Shown here piece after piece: positions 1,679 to 10,956 of a DNA stretch of 10,956 nucleotides (positions within the stretch are counted from its first letter, which is position 1; every line of letters starts with the position of its first letter). The position numbers and the translations under genes are program-made. Source of the DNA: Candidatus Latescibacterota bacterium (GTDB lineage Bacteria; JAAXHH01; JACQVL01); the NCBI GenBank assembly GCA_016209865.1, contig JACQVL010000208.1, positions 1 through 10,956 of the forward strand. Reading direction: 5' to 3'. The notes under the pieces were generated by a model that did no database searches, was not told where the DNA came from, and was given only the letters and a program-made list of their open reading frames with translations.

Positions 1679-2815
1679 ATGACTCGCCCCCTGCGCATCT
1701 TCCAGGTCTGCTCTTCCTTAGCGTGGGGCGGGACCGAGATGCACCTCCCGATCCTGGCCTCCAAGCTCGTCGAACGCGGCCATACGGTACTGGCCGTCTG
1801 TCATCCTGACGGCAAGATCGTGCGGGAGACGGAGGCCCGGCGCATCCCGACGGCCACCCTCCGGCTGGGCGCCTACCTGAGTCCGGTGACGACCGCGCAA
1901 CTCGTCCGCCTGATCCGTCGAGACCGCCCGGACATTCTCCACCTCCATCTGTCCCGCGACCTCTGGCAGGCCGTCCCGGCAGCCCGATTGGCGGGCTGCG
2001 GGCGGGTGGTTCTGACGAAGCACGTGGGGTCGTTCGTACGGAAGCATGATGTCCTGCACCGCTGGCTCTACCGTCGTGTTGACCGCGTGCTGACCGTCTC
2101 CGACGTCCTCCGCCAGAACGTCATCGAGACCTGCCCGATCCCCCCCGAGCGCGTCCTGACCGTCCACCATGCCCTCGACATCCGGAAATACGACCCGTCC
2201 CGGTGCCAACCGGACGCGGTGCGACGGGAGCTCGGCCTCGCGCCCGACGACCTGGTGATCGGGACGGTCGGGCGGATTACTCCGGGCAAGGGCTACGAGG
2301 AGTTCCTGCAGGCCGGCCGATTGATCCGGGATGCGCAGATGCGCGACGGAACAGGACGCGGGGTGAAATTCCTCATCGTCGGGAACGCCAGCTACGGAGA
2401 AGAGGCATATTACGACCGGATTGTCTCGCTCGCCCGTGACCTCGGTCTCGGGCAGGACGTGATCTTCGCGGGCTACCGGCGCGACATCCCGGAGGTGTTG
2501 AGCGCGATGGACGTGTTTCTCTTCCCTTCCCGCGCCGAGGGACTGGGCGCGACGCTCATCGAGGCGATGGCGATGCAGCGCGCGTGTGTCTCGACGAATT
2601 CAGACGGGACGGCCGATATCATCGAACACGGAGTGACCGGCCTGACCGTCCCGCCGGGGGACGCCGAAGCGTTCGCCCGTGCGACGCTCACCATCCTCCG
2701 CGATCACGCGCTCCAGCGCCGGATGGCGGCCGCCGCCCGTCGATGCGTTGAGAAGAAATTCGATCTTGAGGCGATGACATCGAAGATCGAATCGGTGTAT
2801 GAGAGTGTGGCATGA
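1679..2815 (+). CDS. Family 4 glycosyltransferase (GT-B fold)
   Basis: A 378-residue GT4 enzyme, normal length. The N-terminal Rossmann domain starts with RIFQVCSSLAWGGTE (glycine-rich loop at 17-18). The C-terminal donor-binding domain has GRITPGKG (R199, K204, the usual phosphate-contacting Arg/Lys) and the E-x7-E motif in PSRAEGLGATLIEAMA (E287 and E295). It is a retaining, nucleotide-sugar-dependent enzyme expected at the cytoplasmic face of the inner membrane; sugar and linkage cannot be read from sequence. No clear Shine-Dalgarno sequence precedes ATG 1679. The stop overlaps the ATG of the exporter gene (ATGA, 2812-2815), so the two are probably translationally coupled and the glycan may be the flippase cargo. 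Confidence 0.93.
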   Translation: MTRPLRIFQVCSSLAWGGTEMHLPILASKLVERGHTVLAVCHPDGKIVRETEARRIPTATLRLGAYLSPVTTAQLVRLIRRDRPDILHLHLSRDLWQAVPAARLAGCGRVVLTKHVGSFVRKHDVLHRWLYRRVDRVLTVSDVLRQNVIETCPIPPERVLTVHHALDIRKYDPSRCQPDAVRRELGLAPDDLVIGTVGRITPGKGYEEFLQAGRLIRDAQMRDGTGRGVKFLIVGNASYGEEAYYDRIVSLARDLGLGQDVIFAGYRRDIPEVLSAMDVFLFPSRAEGLGATLIEAMAMQRACVSTNSDGTADIIEHGVTGLTVPPGDAEAFARATLTILRDHALQRRMAAAARRCVEKKFDLEAMTSKIESVYESVA

Positions 2816-4749
2816 ACCTCTACCTTCGCGTCGTCTCCTACGTCAAGCCGTACTGGCACTACATGGCCGGGGCGATTCTGTGCATGGTGTGCTTCGCCGC
2901 CCTGAGCAGCGCGACGGTGTGGATCGCCCTGCCGCTCCTGCAAACGCTGTTCGGGAAGGAGGCTCCGCACGAGAGCGTGATCCTGAGAGAAGCGGCCCCG
3001 GCCGCACGGCTCGACGAGGCCGCCACCCTCGTCCGCTGGCGGGAGACGCTGAAAGAACGGACGAACAGGCTCATCGCCGGGCGGACGAACGCGGACACCC
3101 TGAAACGGCTCTGCGTGATCGTCTTCATCGTCGTGCTCCTCAAGAACCTGTGCAGTTACTTCCAGGCGTACCTGATGGCGTACGCGGAACTCGGCGTCAT
3201 CCGGGACCTCCGCAACGCCCTGTACACCCATCTCCACCGGCTGTCCCTCTCGTACTTCCATCAGGAGCGCACCGGCGAGCTGATCTCCCGGATCACGTAC
3301 GACGTGAACCTCGTCAACGGGACGATCTCCGCCGCGTTCGGGACGATGGTCAAAGAGCCCCTCCTCGTCCTCGTCCACCTGGCCCTCCTCGTCCTCCTGA
3401 GCTGGCAGCTCACGTTGGCGGCCTTCCTGTTCCTGCCGTTGAGCGTCCTGGTCATCACGAAGGCCGGCCAGAAACTCCGGCGCAGCAGCACCGCCTCGCA
3501 GGAGACGATGGCCGACCTGACCTCCACCATCCAGGAGACGGTCGCTGGAATTCGTGTCGTGAAGGCGTTCGGGATGGAGGGGTTCGAGACGACGAAATTC
3601 ATCCGGCAGACGGGTTCGTATTTCAGAACCCTGCTCCGGCTCACCCGGACTCGCAACTTAGCCGGGCCGGTCACCGAGGTCTTGGGCGGCCTGGTCGGCC
3701 TGGCCATCCTCTGGTACGGCGGGAGCCGGGTGATGGCGGGCGACTTGCTGGCCCCGGAAGATTTTTTGACGTTTCTGCTCGCCCTCTTCTCGATGCTCAA
3801 ACCCCTCAAGGAACTGGGCCAGGTGAATAACCGGATTCAGGAAGGGATCGCCGCCGCCGAGCGGGTGTTCGCCATCCTCGACACCCCGCCCAGCATCGTG
3901 GACGCGCCAGGGGCGATCCAGGTGACCGGCTTTCGTGAGTCGATCCGTTTCCGGGATGTGTCGTTCGGATACGACGGGAACCGGGAGGTGCTGCAGCACA
4001 TCGACCTCACCGTCAGGGCGGGGGAGATTCTGGCGATCGTCGGGCCGAGCGGCGGGGGCAAATCCACCCTCGTCGACCTGGTCGCCCGGTTCTACGACCC
4101 GACAGATGGAACGATCCAGATCGACGGGGTCGACCTTCACCGCATCCGCCTCGACTCCCTCCGCGGGCTGATGGGCATCGTCACGCAGGAGGTCATCCTG
4201 TTCAACGATACCGTGCGGAACAACATCGCGTACGGGCTGGCGGACATCCCACTCGACCGGGTGATCGAGGCAGCGGTGGCGGCCAACGCGGATGAGTTCA
4301 TTCGGAAGCTCCCCGACGGGTACGACACGTGGATCGGGGAGCGGGGCGTCCGGCTGTCCGGCGGCCAGCGGCAGCGGTTAGCCATCGCGCGCGCGATCCT
4401 GAAAGACCCGCACATCCTGATCTTCGATGAAGCGACGTCCGCCTTAGACACCGAGTCCGAACTGCTCGTCCAGGAGGCGATCGACCGGCTGATGCGCGGC
4501 CGGACGGCGTTCGTCATCGCGCATCGCCTGTCCACCATCCAGCACGCGGATCGGGTGATCGTCATCGACGACGGACGGATCGTCCAGACGGGCACGCATG
4601 CGACGCTCGTCCAGGCGGACGGGCTGTACCGGAAGCTGTATGCGCTGCAGTTCAGGCAGGGGTCAGGGGTCAGGGGACAGGGTCAGGGGTCAGGGATTCC
4701 GTATGAAGTGCCAGAAGACAAGCCTGGATTCCCGCTTTCGCGGGAATGA
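2812..4749 (+). CDS. msbA: MsbA-like ABC exporter (lipid A / lipid-linked glycan flippase)
   Basis: A 645-residue half-transporter with an N-terminal six-helix membrane domain (about 1-330) and a C-terminal ATPase. The ATPase motifs are complete: A-loop tyrosine in SFGYDG (Y387), Walker A GPSGGGKST 411-419, signature LSGGQ 515-519, Walker B ILIFDE 535-540 (catalytic E540), and switch histidine H571 in AHRLST. It would dimerise and move lipid A-core or another lipid-linked oligosaccharide across the inner membrane. A hydrophilic segment of ~50 residues (48-98) lies between the first two membrane helices, longer than in E. coli MsbA. The last ~29 residues (from about 617, GSGVRGQGQGSG...) are encoded by heptamer and palindromic repeat DNA and are unlike the family; the stop codon itself is in the palindrome. 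The start overlaps the GT4 stop by 4 bp, with GAGAG at 2801-2805 as a possible ribosome site. The gene symbol is by family; the cargo is inferred. Confidence 0.93.
   Translation: MNLYLRVVSYVKPYWHYMAGAILCMVCFAALSSATVWIALPLLQTLFGKEAPHESVILREAAPAARLDEAATLVRWRETLKERTNRLIAGRTNADTLKRLCVIVFIVVLLKNLCSYFQAYLMAYAELGVIRDLRNALYTHLHRLSLSYFHQERTGELISRITYDVNLVNGTISAAFGTMVKEPLLVLVHLALLVLLSWQLTLAAFLFLPLSVLVITKAGQKLRRSSTASQETMADLTSTIQETVAGIRVVKAFGMEGFETTKFIRQTGSYFRTLLRLTRTRNLAGPVTEVLGGLVGLAILWYGGSRVMAGDLLAPEDFLTFLLALFSMLKPLKELGQVNNRIQEGIAAAERVFAILDTPPSIVDAPGAIQVTGFRESIRFRDVSFGYDGNREVLQHIDLTVRAGEILAIVGPSGGGKSTLVDLVARFYDPTDGTIQIDGVDLHRIRLDSLRGLMGIVTQEVILFNDTVRNNIAYGLADIPLDRVIEAAVAANADEFIRKLPDGYDTWIGERGVRLSGGQRQRLAIARAILKDPHILIFDEATSALDTESELLVQEAIDRLMRGRTAFVIAHRLSTIQHADRVIVIDDGRIVQTGTHATLVQADGLYRKLYALQFRQGSGVRGQGQGSGIPYEVPEDKPGFPLSRE
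4658..4695 (+). repeat. GGGGTCA heptamer repeats inside the 3' end of the exporter gene
   Basis: AGGGGTCAGGGGTCAG at 4658-4673 is followed after a short interruption by GGGTCAGGGGTCAGGG at 4680-4695. The unit is a 7-mer (GGGGTCA), so successive copies shift the reading frame. It encodes the Gly/Gln/Ser-rich start of the exporter's aberrant tail. Confidence 0.85.
4728..4747 (+). repeat. Palindrome ATTCCCGC-TTTC-GCGGGAAT
   Basis: A perfect 8-bp stem with a 4-nt loop: arms 4728-4735 and 4740-4747. The ATTCCC...GGGAAT ends are like those of dispersed short palindromes such as the neisserial dRS3 repeat, and similar elements occur between genes in other bacteria. The TGA stop of the exporter (4747-4749) begins on its last base. 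No T-run follows, so it is not a standard terminator. Confidence 0.75.
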
Positions 4750-7511: not shown

Positions 7512-8345
7512 ATGAACCCATCCGCCATGTCCCGTCTCTCTATCGTCGTGATCACCTACAACGAAGAACACAAGCTCAGGCGGTGCCTCGACCCGGTCCG
7601 CTGGGCGGACGAGATCATCGTCGTCGACAGCTACAGCACCGACCGGACGGTGGACATTGCCCGCGAGTACACGGAGCGGGTGTACCAGAACCCGTGGGCC
7701 GGGTTCGCCGCTCAGCGGACGTTCGGGATGGAACGGGCGACGGGCGACTGGGTGCTGTTTCTCGACGCGGATGAGTACGTGACGGACGAGTTGAACGCGC
7801 GGCTCCGGTCGATCCTCACGGACGGGACGCCAGACGATGGGTTCAAGATCCACCGGGTCGAGCATTTTCTCGGCTACCCCATCCGGTACGGGACGTTCAA
7901 CCCGAGCTACCAGCCCCGCCTGCTGCGGCGCGGGAAGGGCTACTGGACGGGCGGCGCGCACGCGCATTTCGAGGTCGACGGGACGATGGGCATCATCGAA
8001 GAAGACCTCTACCACGATTCTCACAACACCATCGCCGAGTTCATCACGAGGATCAACGCCTACACGACGATCGACGCACAAGAACGGTTCGAACGCGGAC
8101 AGCGCGTCGGACGGGCCAGGGTCGTGCTTTCTCCCATCGGGATGTGGTGGAAGTGCCTGATCGTGAAACAGGGGTACCGGGACGGTTTTCCTGGTTTCCT
8201 GCTGAGTATCGGGATGGGGATTTACTCGTTCCTGCGTCTGGTCAAGGTGTGGCAGTTGAATCAGGAACCTCACCCTTACCCCCTGACCCCCTTCCCCTCT
8301 CCGCGAGCAGAGAGGGGAAGGGGGAGTGATTTGAGAGTCTCATGA
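7512..8345 (+). CDS. GT2 glycosyltransferase, WaaE/KdtX-like, divergent paralog
   Basis: A 277-residue GT-A enzyme beginning MSRLSIVVITYNEE; VVDSYSTDRT (38-47) and the DAD motif (85-87) mark the nucleotide-sugar site. It is the third WaaE-like gene of the window but has diverged: GWYP is replaced by GTFNPSY (127-133) and the VHE acceptor motif by AHAHFE (149-154), suggesting a different acceptor. The membrane-associated C-terminal block is present (CLIVKQGYRDGFPGFLLS, 215-232). The natural protein probably ends near VKVWQLNQE (residue 252); the remaining 25 residues (PHPYPLTPFPSPRAERGRG...) are read from a hairpin repeat. The start may be ATG 7512 or ATG 7527; neither has a clear ribosome site. 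The stop overlaps the ATG of the fusion gene (8342-8345). Confidence 0.9.
   Translation: MNPSAMSRLSIVVITYNEEHKLRRCLDPVRWADEIIVVDSYSTDRTVDIAREYTERVYQNPWAGFAAQRTFGMERATGDWVLFLDADEYVTDELNARLRSILTDGTPDDGFKIHRVEHFLGYPIRYGTFNPSYQPRLLRRGKGYWTGGAHAHFEVDGTMGIIEEDLYHDSHNTIAEFITRINAYTTIDAQERFERGQRVGRARVVLSPIGMWWKCLIVKQGYRDGFPGFLLSIGMGIYSFLRLVKVWQLNQEPHPYPLTPFPSPRAERGRGSDLRVS
8287..8324 (+). repeat. GC-rich palindromic repeat inside the GT2 3' end
   Basis: A perfect 15-bp stem (8287-8301 with 8310-8324, arms of the CCCCCTTCCCCTCTC type) and 8-nt loop. It is preceded by CCTCACCC at 8268-8275, as in leader hairpin 1. It is translated as the last ~25 residues of the GT2 protein. Confidence 0.8.
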
Positions 8346-10354
8346 GTCACACCCCTTCTTCCGCCTGCAGCCTCATCATCCCGACATGGAACGGCCGCGC
8401 CCTCCTGGAACGCTGCCTCCGGTCGGTGCTCGACGCGGTGGACGTCGGCCGGCACGAGGTGATCGTCGTCGACGACGGGAGCACGGACGGGACGGCCGCG
8501 TTCGTCCGTTCGACATTCCCAGAGGTGATCGTCGAGGAGATGGGCGGCAATCGGGGGTTCGGGGAGGCGTGCAACGCGGGCGTCGCGCGCAGCGTCGGGC
8601 CGGTCGTCGTCCTGCTGAACAACGACCTCGTCGTCGAGACCTGGTTTCTTCCGCCCCTGCTGGAGCATTTTCAGGACGAGCGCGTGTTCGCCGTCAACCC
8701 CTGCGTCTACCAGGCGGACGGCAGGACGCCGGGCGGCGGGCTGGTGCGCGGGTACTTCCACTTCGGGTTGCTCCGGCTGCGCTGGTCGGAATCGGCTGAA
8801 GAACGGGGACGCGGCGGGCTGACGCTGTACGCGAACGGGGCCGCGACGGCCATCCATCGGAGAAAGTTTCTTGAACTCGGCGGGTTTGACGCATTATATT
8901 CTCCATTCTATTCGGAGGATCTCGACCTGTCGTACCGGGCGTACCAGCGCGGGTGGGAAGTCCGGTACGAGCCGCGGAGCGTGGTGCGCCACGATCACAG
9001 CCGGACGATCACGGCGGCGTTCGACCCGGCGTTCGTCGCGCGCATCAGCCGGCGCAACCGGATGCTGTTCGTCTGGCGCAACGTCCGGGACCCGTGGCTG
9101 CTCGTCCAGCACGGGACGTGTCTGGTCTTGCGGACGTGCGGAGGCCTGTTGAGCGGGGACGTGACGTTCCTCCGCGCGCTGACTGACGCGCTCCGCCGCG
9201 TTCAGGAGGTGGGACGGCGGCGCCGGCAGGACCCTCCGGGTCTGGTTCCGGACCGGGACATCTTAGAGCGGACGTCGCGCTGGGCGCTGAAGAAAGGACG
9301 AGGGACGCCCCGCCGGATTCTCGTCACCCGGCTGCGATTTATCGGGGATGTGGTGCTGACCACCCCGGTCGTCCGCGCGCTCCGGGCGCAGTACCCGGAG
9401 GCGGAGATCGTCTACCTGGCTGAACGCGGCCCGGCCGAGGCACTCGACGGCCATCCGGACGTGGACGAGGTCATCCCGTTCGACCGGGAGAGCCTCAGCC
9501 GGCTCCCGCTCGGACGGCGTCTCCGCGAGTACGGCCGGTTTTTAGCCGGCCTGCGGACGCGGCGGTTTGATGTGGTGATCGACCTGTTCAGCAACCCGCG
9601 GAGCGCCCTGCTGACGTTGGCGACCGGAGCGCCGCTCCGGGTGGGGTACGACGTGCGCGGACGGGGGATCGTCTATAACGTCAAAATCCGCCGGTCGTCG
9701 TCGTTGAGTGTCGTCGATGCCTACCTGGACGCGGTGCGGACGCTCGGCCTCCCGGTGATGGATTCGCAGCCCCGCCTGGCGCTCACCGAGGAAGACGTGC
9801 AGTGGGCGGATGAGTGGCTCAACGAGCGGGGCATCGGACACGAAGGCGCCGTCATCGGCCTGAACCCCGGCGCGAGCTGGCCGGCCAAGATGTGGGGGAC
9901 GGAGCGGTTCGCGGAACTCGGCGATCGATTGGTCGAGCGCCATCAGGCCGTCGTCATCCTCGTCCACGGGCCGGGTCAGCGATCCCTTGTCGAGGCCGTC
10001 GAGGCAGGCATGCGGCACCGGCCGGTCATCGCCGGCCTGATGCCCCTCAAGCGTCTGGCCGCGCTCATCCATCGGTTCGACGTGTTCGTCACGAACGACT
10101 GCGGTCCGATGCACATCGCGGCCGCGGTCGGGACGCCGACGGTCGGCCTGTTCGGGCCGAGCCGGCCGGATATCTGGTTTCCGTACGCCGAGGTGGACGG
10201 GCATACCGCGCTCACTCCACGCGTCCCGTCCTGCTGCGGCCGTGACGTCTGCACCGCCCCGACTCCGTGCATCGCCACGATCCCGGTCGATGACGTCTGC
10301 GCGGCGGTGGAACGGGCGTTGAGCGTGAGGAAGCAAGTTGGGGGTGTGATATGA
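8342..10354 (+). CDS. Bifunctional GT2-GT9 fusion: glycosyltransferase plus heptosyltransferase-like domain
   Basis: A 670-residue protein joining two glycosyltransferases. Residues ~9-270 are a GT2 of the rhamnosyltransferase (WbbL-like) type: CSLIIPTWNGR, VVDDGSTDGT (42-51), NRGFGEACNAG, NND metal site (93-95) and the catalytic-base region YSEDLDLSYR (E192, D193). A basic linker (~285-322, RRVQEVGRRRRQDPPG...) leads to a GT9 module (~323-670): RILVTRLRFIGDVVLTTP (325-342), NPGASWPAKMWG (508-519, K516), and TNDCGPMHIAAAVGTPTVGLFGP (583-605). The end carries C631, C632, C637 and C643, matching the cysteine-rich C-terminus typical of many GT9 enzymes. Both modules look intact, so two consecutive sugar additions by one protein is the natural inference. 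GT9 enzymes usually use ADP-heptose; the GT2 donor is unknown. The start overlaps the upstream stop and the end overlaps the next start, both as ATGA. Confidence 0.92.
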   Translation: MSHTPSSACSLIIPTWNGRALLERCLRSVLDAVDVGRHEVIVVDDGSTDGTAAFVRSTFPEVIVEEMGGNRGFGEACNAGVARSVGPVVVLLNNDLVVETWFLPPLLEHFQDERVFAVNPCVYQADGRTPGGGLVRGYFHFGLLRLRWSESAEERGRGGLTLYANGAATAIHRRKFLELGGFDALYSPFYSEDLDLSYRAYQRGWEVRYEPRSVVRHDHSRTITAAFDPAFVARISRRNRMLFVWRNVRDPWLLVQHGTCLVLRTCGGLLSGDVTFLRALTDALRRVQEVGRRRRQDPPGLVPDRDILERTSRWALKKGRGTPRRILVTRLRFIGDVVLTTPVVRALRAQYPEAEIVYLAERGPAEALDGHPDVDEVIPFDRESLSRLPLGRRLREYGRFLAGLRTRRFDVVIDLFSNPRSALLTLATGAPLRVGYDVRGRGIVYNVKIRRSSSLSVVDAYLDAVRTLGLPVMDSQPRLALTEEDVQWADEWLNERGIGHEGAVIGLNPGASWPAKMWGTERFAELGDRLVERHQAVVILVHGPGQRSLVEAVEAGMRHRPVIAGLMPLKRLAALIHRFDVFVTNDCGPMHIAAAVGTPTVGLFGPSRPDIWFPYAEVDGHTALTPRVPSCCGRDVCTAPTPCIATIPVDDVCAAVERALSVRKQVGGVI

Positions 10355-10557
10355 GCACATCGCAGAAGATGGATGCACCACAGCACAGGAAGCCACGAGC
10401 GGATGTCGCTAACCCATCGCAACCCGTCGCGCAGCCTGACGGAAGCCCGGCGTCACAGCAGCCGCCCGGCACTAAGGATGACGCGAAGGATGACGTGTAT
10501 TCCGCCGAAGAAGAGGAGGCGGTGATGCAGCGGCTACGCGACCTGGGGTACGTGTGA
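10351..10557 (+). CDS. Small disordered protein with acidic helix and LGY-type C-terminus
   Basis: A 68-residue protein I cannot assign to a named family. Residues 1-47 are polar and rich in Pro, Gln, Asp and Ser, with no signal peptide or membrane segment, and are probably disordered. Residues 50-68 (YSAEEEEAVMQRLRDLGYV) look like a short amphipathic helix. This ending resembles the extreme C-terminal tail often seen on alkaline-phosphatase/sulfatase-superfamily proteins (acidic run, then RL..LGY), and the next gene encodes such an enzyme, although its own C-terminus is not visible. It is probably a real gene: ATG overlaps the fusion stop (ATGA 10351-10354), GGGGGTG at 10340-10346 can serve as ribosome site, and its stop is 5 bases before the next start. 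A role as partner or detached tail of the hydrolase is a guess. Confidence 0.72.
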   Translation: MSTSQKMDAPQHRKPRADVANPSQPVAQPDGSPASQQPPGTKDDAKDDVYSAEEEEAVMQRLRDLGYV

Positions 10558-10562
10558 GATCA

Positions 10563-10956
10563 ATGCCTGCATCGAAATTGTTCGTCATCGGACTGGACTG
10601 CGTGCCCCCGGAACTGGTCCTCCACCGGTGGCGGCAGGACTTACCGCATCTGAACCGGCTGATCGGCCACGGGGTGTCTGGCAGCCTGACCAGTTGCATC
10701 CCGTGCATCACCGTCCCGGCGTGGAGCGTGATGACCTCCGGCAAGGACCCGGGGGTGCTGGGCATCTACGGGTTTCGGAACCGTGTGGACTACTCATACG
10801 ACCGGATGACGATCGCCACCGGGGCGGCCGTCCAGGAGTCGCGCGTGTGGGATCTGTTGAGTCAGGCGGGCAAGAGGGTGGTCACGATCGGCATTCCCGG
10901 CACGTACCCGCCGCGACCGGTGAACGGCGCGCAGGTCGGCTGTTTTCTCACTCCGC
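10563..10956 (+). CDS. Alkaline-phosphatase-superfamily hydrolase (type I phosphodiesterase/nucleotide pyrophosphatase), 3'-truncated
   Basis: The first 131 residues of a protein that runs off the window. It begins MPASKLFVIGLDCVPPELV, where D12 is the expected first metal ligand, continues with LPHLNRLIGHGVSGSLTSC, and has CITVPAWSVMTSGKDPG (48-64), where T50 is the expected nucleophile of the phosphodiesterase/pyrophosphatase branch. HGIY.F-type sequence (LGIYGFRNR, 67-74) follows, then VWDLLSQAGKRVVTIGIPGTYPP. The later metal-binding Asp/His residues are outside the window. Family members cleave or transfer phosphodiester, phosphomonoester or sulfate groups. No signal peptide is visible, so the visible part looks cytoplasmic. 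It lies 5 bases downstream of the small protein, in the same probable operon. Substrate is unknown; trimming or modifying a glycan phosphate is possible. Confidence 0.87.
   Translation, partial: MPASKLFVIGLDCVPPELVLHRWRQDLPHLNRLIGHGVSGSLTSCIPCITVPAWSVMTSGKDPGVLGIYGFRNRVDYSYDRMTIATGAAVQESRVWDLLSQAGKRVVTIGIPGTYPPRPVNGAQVGCFLTP

Follow-up and report, generated by a model that had tools for sequence, protein, structure and literature searches.

A stand-alone 68-residue protein bearing a C-terminal tail shared with sulfate-activating enzymes and alkaline-phosphatase-superfamily hydrolases: a candidate docking tag acting in cis or in trans

Encapsulin cargo-loading peptides are C-terminal tags on cargo enzymes. 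The tail described here likewise sits at enzyme C-termini, and the sequence pattern of the encapsulin peptides differs from it. Sulfate-activating enzymes can also be physically joined, as in the bifunctional PAPS synthetases (ATP sulfurylase-APS kinase fusions), which are found among the solved relatives of APS kinase (2gks, 3cr8 and PAPSS1). Finally, the encapsulation peptides of bacterial microcompartments (BMCs) consist of a short helix with a disordered linker, and occur on several unrelated enzymes of one pathway, which they gather together (PMC12339742, PMC11157265). Our tail resembles them in being a short helix that follows a disordered linker and in recurring on several enzymes of one pathway. 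Unlike them, it is strictly C-terminal, ends in LGY and also occurs as separate mini-proteins. Neither kind of compartment serves as a general explanation: among 12 tail-bearing genomes tested, 8 have no BMC shell gene (PF00936) and none has encapsulin (PF04454). The genome studied here (G000) does have three BMC shell-protein domains on other contigs (C232:8934-9474 and C80:14234-14461).

The window, i.e. the whole stretch of 10,956 nucleotides that was analysed, is an entire contig (C157) of a Candidatus Latescibacterota genome of 3.75 Mb that is 83% complete. The initial annotation had drawn attention to a small protein near its 3' end. The relevant features are:

8342..10354, forward strand: upstream glycosyltransferase, a GT2 domain (residues 10-176, PF00535) fused to a GT9 heptosyltransferase-type domain (residues 399-624, PF01075), both by Pfam
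10340-10344, forward strand: GGGGG run, a possible ribosome-binding site for P0001
10351..10354, forward strand: ATGA overlap in the sequence, combining the P0001 start with the glycosyltransferase stop
10351..10557, forward strand: P0001, the small tail ORF, a stand-alone tail protein of 68 aa
10483..10554, forward strand: the shared C-terminal tail in P0001, residues 45-68, AKDDVYSAEEEEAVMQRLRDLGYV
10563..10956, forward strand: N-terminal part of AP-A, an AP-superfamily (NPP/type I phosphodiesterase-like) hydrolase (PF01663), the gene being cut by the contig end
L003:1358-1900, next gene after AP-A, on contig C39: APS kinase (PF01583) without the tail

The P0001 ORF is a real gene. Its codon-position GC (0.72/0.46/0.71) is coding-like, a pattern that vanishes in the two other frames, and this speaks for translation. 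The arrangement first reported, with the small ORF coupled to the upstream glycosyltransferase and 5 bases ahead of a hydrolase, is borne out by the ATGA overlap and by the AP-A ATG at 10563, 5 nt past the P0001 stop. The GT2-GT9 fusion is itself part of an exopolysaccharide/LPS-type cluster with an ABC exporter (2812-4749). The remainder of AP-A lies on contig C39 (L003:2-1357); the two contigs (10643-10956 and L003:1-314) overlap over 314 nt at 97% identity, probably because variation between strains interrupted the assembly. Followed onto this contig, AP-A has no tail and ends in ...PPDMQGRVIRFEEHI (also given as ...MQGRVIRFEEHI). The earlier suggestion that P0001 is a detached version of an AP-enzyme tail is supported. 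The APS kinase stops at ...TERGLIEEEG, the point where tailed kinases run on into linker and tail. We found no second APS kinase in this genome.

P0001 ends in EEEEAVMQRLRDLGYV. Its residues 1-44 are of low complexity, rich in P, Q, S, D and K, and probably disordered; our analysis found no relative of this segment, which is not homologous to the core of the kinase. The protein as a whole has no above-cut-off match in Pfam and none in NCBIfam. Because the genome-wide tail profile contained P0001 among its members, the fair test for it is the leave-one-out score, which amounts to 30.2 bits against a profile of 20 other tails, while 20,000 shuffles of its last 24 residues reached at most 11.2. 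This shuffle test and the clear score gap rule out a chance resemblance and confirm that the 68-residue protein ends in the tail recognised by the initial annotation. P0001 passes the 22-bit profile threshold with a match within 2 residues of the C-terminus, the tail ending at the last residue, and it is encoded beside AP-superfamily and APS kinase genes (AP-A 5 nt downstream, then APS kinase). The tails nearest to its own are found on APS kinases (36.5 bits) and AP hydrolases (37.7 bits). We also considered P0001 as a ribbon-helix-helix-like (RHH-like) small protein and rejected this, as it contains neither of the RHH-like segments (types a and b) and RHH-type tail profiles give it about 11 bits. 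A profile search of its own genome, 83% complete, detected no tail besides that of P0001.

The tail is a 24-residue module with the pattern [YF][ST]xEEExxIxxRLxxLGY[ILV]. Its position is strictly C-terminal: across all fetched loci (15,586 distinct ORFs), which were chosen by tail or AP-A matches and not by where the tail sits in a protein, 93 of 94 matches of at least 22 bits end no more than 2 residues from the C-terminus. The tail-bearing ORFs in these loci fall into small ones (32), ORFs of 160-300 aa (31) and ORFs of 400-700 aa (28), and the genome-wide profile searches likewise gave small proteins, proteins of 200-250 aa and proteins of 500-600 aa. In the loci read, most of the middle-sized carriers are APS kinases, and the large ones are AP-superfamily hydrolases. 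From its sequence, the tail would be a short capped amphipathic helix, with an S/T-x-E-E N-cap, an I/V-L-L face and an L-G-Y-[ILV] C-cap. AlphaFold2 models of a tailed AP-A and of a tailed APS kinase each show a separate helix of 13-14 residues after a low-confidence linker. The confidence of this helix is fair to good, and the models, being monomers without inter-domain error values, do not distinguish a docked from a free tail. No such tail was found in Pfam, NCBIfam or the sequences of the PDB, and open-licence papers, searched for the cluster, for its small proteins and for DUF2061 together with APS kinase, contained nothing relevant. To the extent of these sources the tail is previously undescribed. 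The initial interpretation holds in large part, for a system that is larger than first thought.

The tail is similar to the last helix of APS kinase itself: in tail-less kinases (L148, L168, L224) this helix scores 15-18 bits, up to 17.9, against a tail model from which kinase tails were left out, and for which the 99.9th percentile of shuffles is 8.2. Because of this likeness the tail may have been copied from the last helix of APS kinase; a common helix-capping pattern could also explain the resemblance.

The proteins that carry the tail are otherwise unrelated. They include APS kinases, CysD, AP-superfamily hydrolases (AP-A among them), RHH-like small proteins, a DUF2061 protein and disordered mini-proteins. 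The pattern was first recognised as a feature of AP-enzyme C-termini, and it is indeed found there, the 28 ORFs of 400-700 aa ending in it; it is not specific to hydrolases, being equally present on APS kinases of the same operons. Since its carriers also include CysD, RHH-like and DUF2061 proteins, the linkage is to a sulfate-activation/AP-hydrolase cluster; the link to glycan machinery that had also been proposed has the neighbouring glycosyltransferases as its only basis. APS kinase is the carrier in most tail-bearing clusters, and among these kinases are ones encoded directly 3' of AP-A orthologues. Elsewhere the carrier is AP-A, CysD or a separate small protein. AP-A itself is tailed in L167, L207, L208 and G199, and in a triple fusion of ATP sulfurylase, AP-A and tail (L188). 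In G183, a DUF2061 small membrane protein and CysD both carry the tail. The row at L116:6891-10614 comprises the tailed DUF2061 small membrane protein, an AP hydrolase, the tailed CysD and a CysN-looking gene.

Just downstream of AP-A, L221:8332-8832 encodes a pseudo-kinase without P-loop, which still scores 42 bits to the kinase core and keeps its tail intact. Two further ORFs downstream of AP-A (L165:8461-8751 and L201:1360-1632) are possible shorter kinase remnants, a weak assignment, with intact tails. In a Methylomirabilis locus (L209), APS kinase is apparently fused to an RHH-like segment plus tail. Mini-proteins of about 42 aa occur beside AP-A in L199 and L219. The one in L199 (42 aa, disordered), MTATPKRPEDPAEPPPNPDATEGYSPEEEEEVQKRLEDLGYI, belongs to an AP-A operon, is ATGA-coupled to its upstream neighbour, a CobW-like gene 3' of AP-A, and is the nearest analogue of P0001. 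More than one tail protein can share a cluster, RHH-like ones, which are probably dimeric, among them (G016, G057, G202, G286). A second, tail-guided genome search yielded many further tailed kinases and hydrolases and no new disordered mini-protein; the single short frame in it (G292, 80 aa) extends past a contig end.

Small tail ORFs recur next to AP-superfamily genes, as had been proposed for checking. In 31 of 32 distinct cases a same-strand AP-superfamily gene lies within 1.3 kb, the exception being near a contig end. Part of the 32 came via AP-A-guided searches; in the tail-guided subset, 17 of 18 have an AP-superfamily neighbour. The initial annotation had made its proposal depend on conservation of the small ORF and on the presence of the tail in AP-superfamily proteins. 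The latter holds. As for the former, it is the type of ORF that recurs, and P0001 itself was seen in one genome only. The tail profiles were run over 288 and 386 genomes, in partly overlapping sets. AP-A (E < 1e-110) is present in 24 of the 288 genomes, and the tail (E <= 1e-4) occurs in 21 of these 24 against 18 of the 264 others (Fisher p = 2.5e-18; the genomes, almost all from different genera, are not entirely independent of one another). At the level of loci, the carrier among the 80 named AP-A loci is APS kinase in 18, AP-A in 3, a triple fusion in one more and a small ORF in 11. Roughly half of the 80 lack a tail in the stretch that was fetched; these are mostly from Chloroflexota and include the closest relatives of the window's AP-A. 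Thus, hydrolase and kinase can do without the tail.

One gene order that recurs places ATP sulfurylase first, then AP-A, the tailed APS kinase and a second AP hydrolase, with a type a RHH-like tail protein nearby. In several Chloroflexota, ATP sulfurylase and AP-A are fused (L157:5723-8314 and L188:5480-8392, the latter also tailed), which ties AP-A to sulfate activation. The AP-A orthologues of the set share 47-55% identity; invariant among them are the residues that we take to be the nucleophile Thr and the metal ligands, as expected for such an enzyme. A model of AP-A shows the NPP fold and matches ENPP6, NPP1/3 and Xac NPP, while a sequence search at E 1e-5 gave no solved relative. Unlike the nucleotide pyrophosphatase/phosphodiesterase (NPP) branch of the AP superfamily, AP-A has no apparent signal peptide, is only 11-15% identical to that branch and is often encoded with sulfate-activation genes. 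A second group of clusters combines a type b small tail protein with a membrane protein that weakly matches the EMC3/TMCO1-YidC type and with large AP-superfamily enzymes (some 700 aa). This type b block, with a 63-66-aa RHH-like tail protein and one or two of the large AP enzymes, is seen in L065:6014-7045, L107:5155-6174 and L110:5515-6551, and also in L113, L119, L120, L122, L124 and L126; no description of it was found.

The same tail ends unrelated enzymes of one cluster, and it is therefore probably a docking tag. That it occurs almost only at free C-termini, that its unrelated carriers belong to one cluster, that carriers are swapped and that a kinase without P-loop keeps it make a docking tag, in cis or in trans, the best reading of the data. 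The cluster using it comprises ATP sulfurylase, AP-A, APS kinase, further AP-superfamily enzymes and small tail proteins. In these the tag would be a helix that ends the chain after a flexible linker, and it would most likely bind a surface shared within the cluster. As the most frequent neighbours, AP-superfamily enzymes are the first candidates for the receptor, and one of them is a good candidate for offering this surface. Once bound, the tag would gather the sulfate-activating enzymes and the hydrolase into one complex. Such joining would be similar to that in bifunctional PAPS synthetases, and would differ from it in using a swappable tail and in taking in an NPP-like hydrolase; the fusions in this cluster are instead those of ATP sulfurylase with AP-A. 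P0001, encoded just upstream of AP-A, would supply the tag in trans to a tail-less AP-A and a tail-less APS kinase. We give roughly even credence to P0001 being a free-standing copy of the C-terminal docking tag of a widespread uncharacterised cluster, which assembles sulfate-activating enzymes and hydrolase, here in trans. More tentatively, and at somewhat less than even credence, the tail could be a hitherto undescribed C-terminal address code on unrelated enzymes (APS kinase, CysD, NPP-like hydrolases), on RHH-like and membrane small proteins and on free mini-proteins, defining a widespread bacterial multi-enzyme assembly that couples sulfate activation to AP chemistry in cis or in trans.

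Other readings draw on some of the same evidence. P0001 might be a functionless remnant of a decayed APS kinase, hydrolase or RHH-like small gene of which the C-terminus alone is left, given that apparently decaying kinases with an intact tail stand at the same position elsewhere (clearly in L221, weakly in L165 and L201), that P0001 is known from a single genome and that its N-terminus lacks homology to the kinase core. We regard this as unlikely. With an intact APS kinase encoded two genes downstream, the ORF is not simply a decayed kinase, and a tail of about 30 bits when left out of the profile, a coding-like GC pattern with ATGA coupling and an independent disordered mini-protein of the same design in another lineage (L199) all argue against decay.

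The function of the tail could also be a different one. A signal for another cellular machine (a C-terminal degron, or a chaperone or protease adaptor signal) would co-regulate the protein levels of the cluster, with the free peptide as decoy or competitor; the free C-terminal position on unrelated proteins (93 of 94) is like that of C-terminal degrons, and an acidic disordered linker precedes the tail. Known bacterial C-degrons, however, are far shorter than some 20 patterned residues with a helix-capping signature, and the concentration of the tail in one functional cluster, with a partner that varies by lineage, fits assembly better than proteolysis, which makes such a signal quite improbable. 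Self-association, e.g. in tail-tail bundles that P0001 would cap or bridge, accords with the coexistence of more than one tail protein in a cluster, including the probably dimeric RHH-like ones. Yet P0001 carries the only tail found in its genome (83% complete), which leaves it no other tail to pair with, and we consider an oligomerisation helix very improbable.

As a docking tag, the tail would show which proteins cooperate in a large and widespread cluster that is so far uncharacterised, and the 24-residue peptide would offer a handle for fishing out the receptor. It would also help to explain why, in many phyla, AP-superfamily hydrolases are found beside ATP sulfurylase and APS kinase, an association that may indicate an undescribed use of APS or PAPS. 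Moreover, the swapping of the tag among an enzyme, a pseudo-enzyme and a free mini-protein amounts to a natural experiment of unusual clarity on modular docking.
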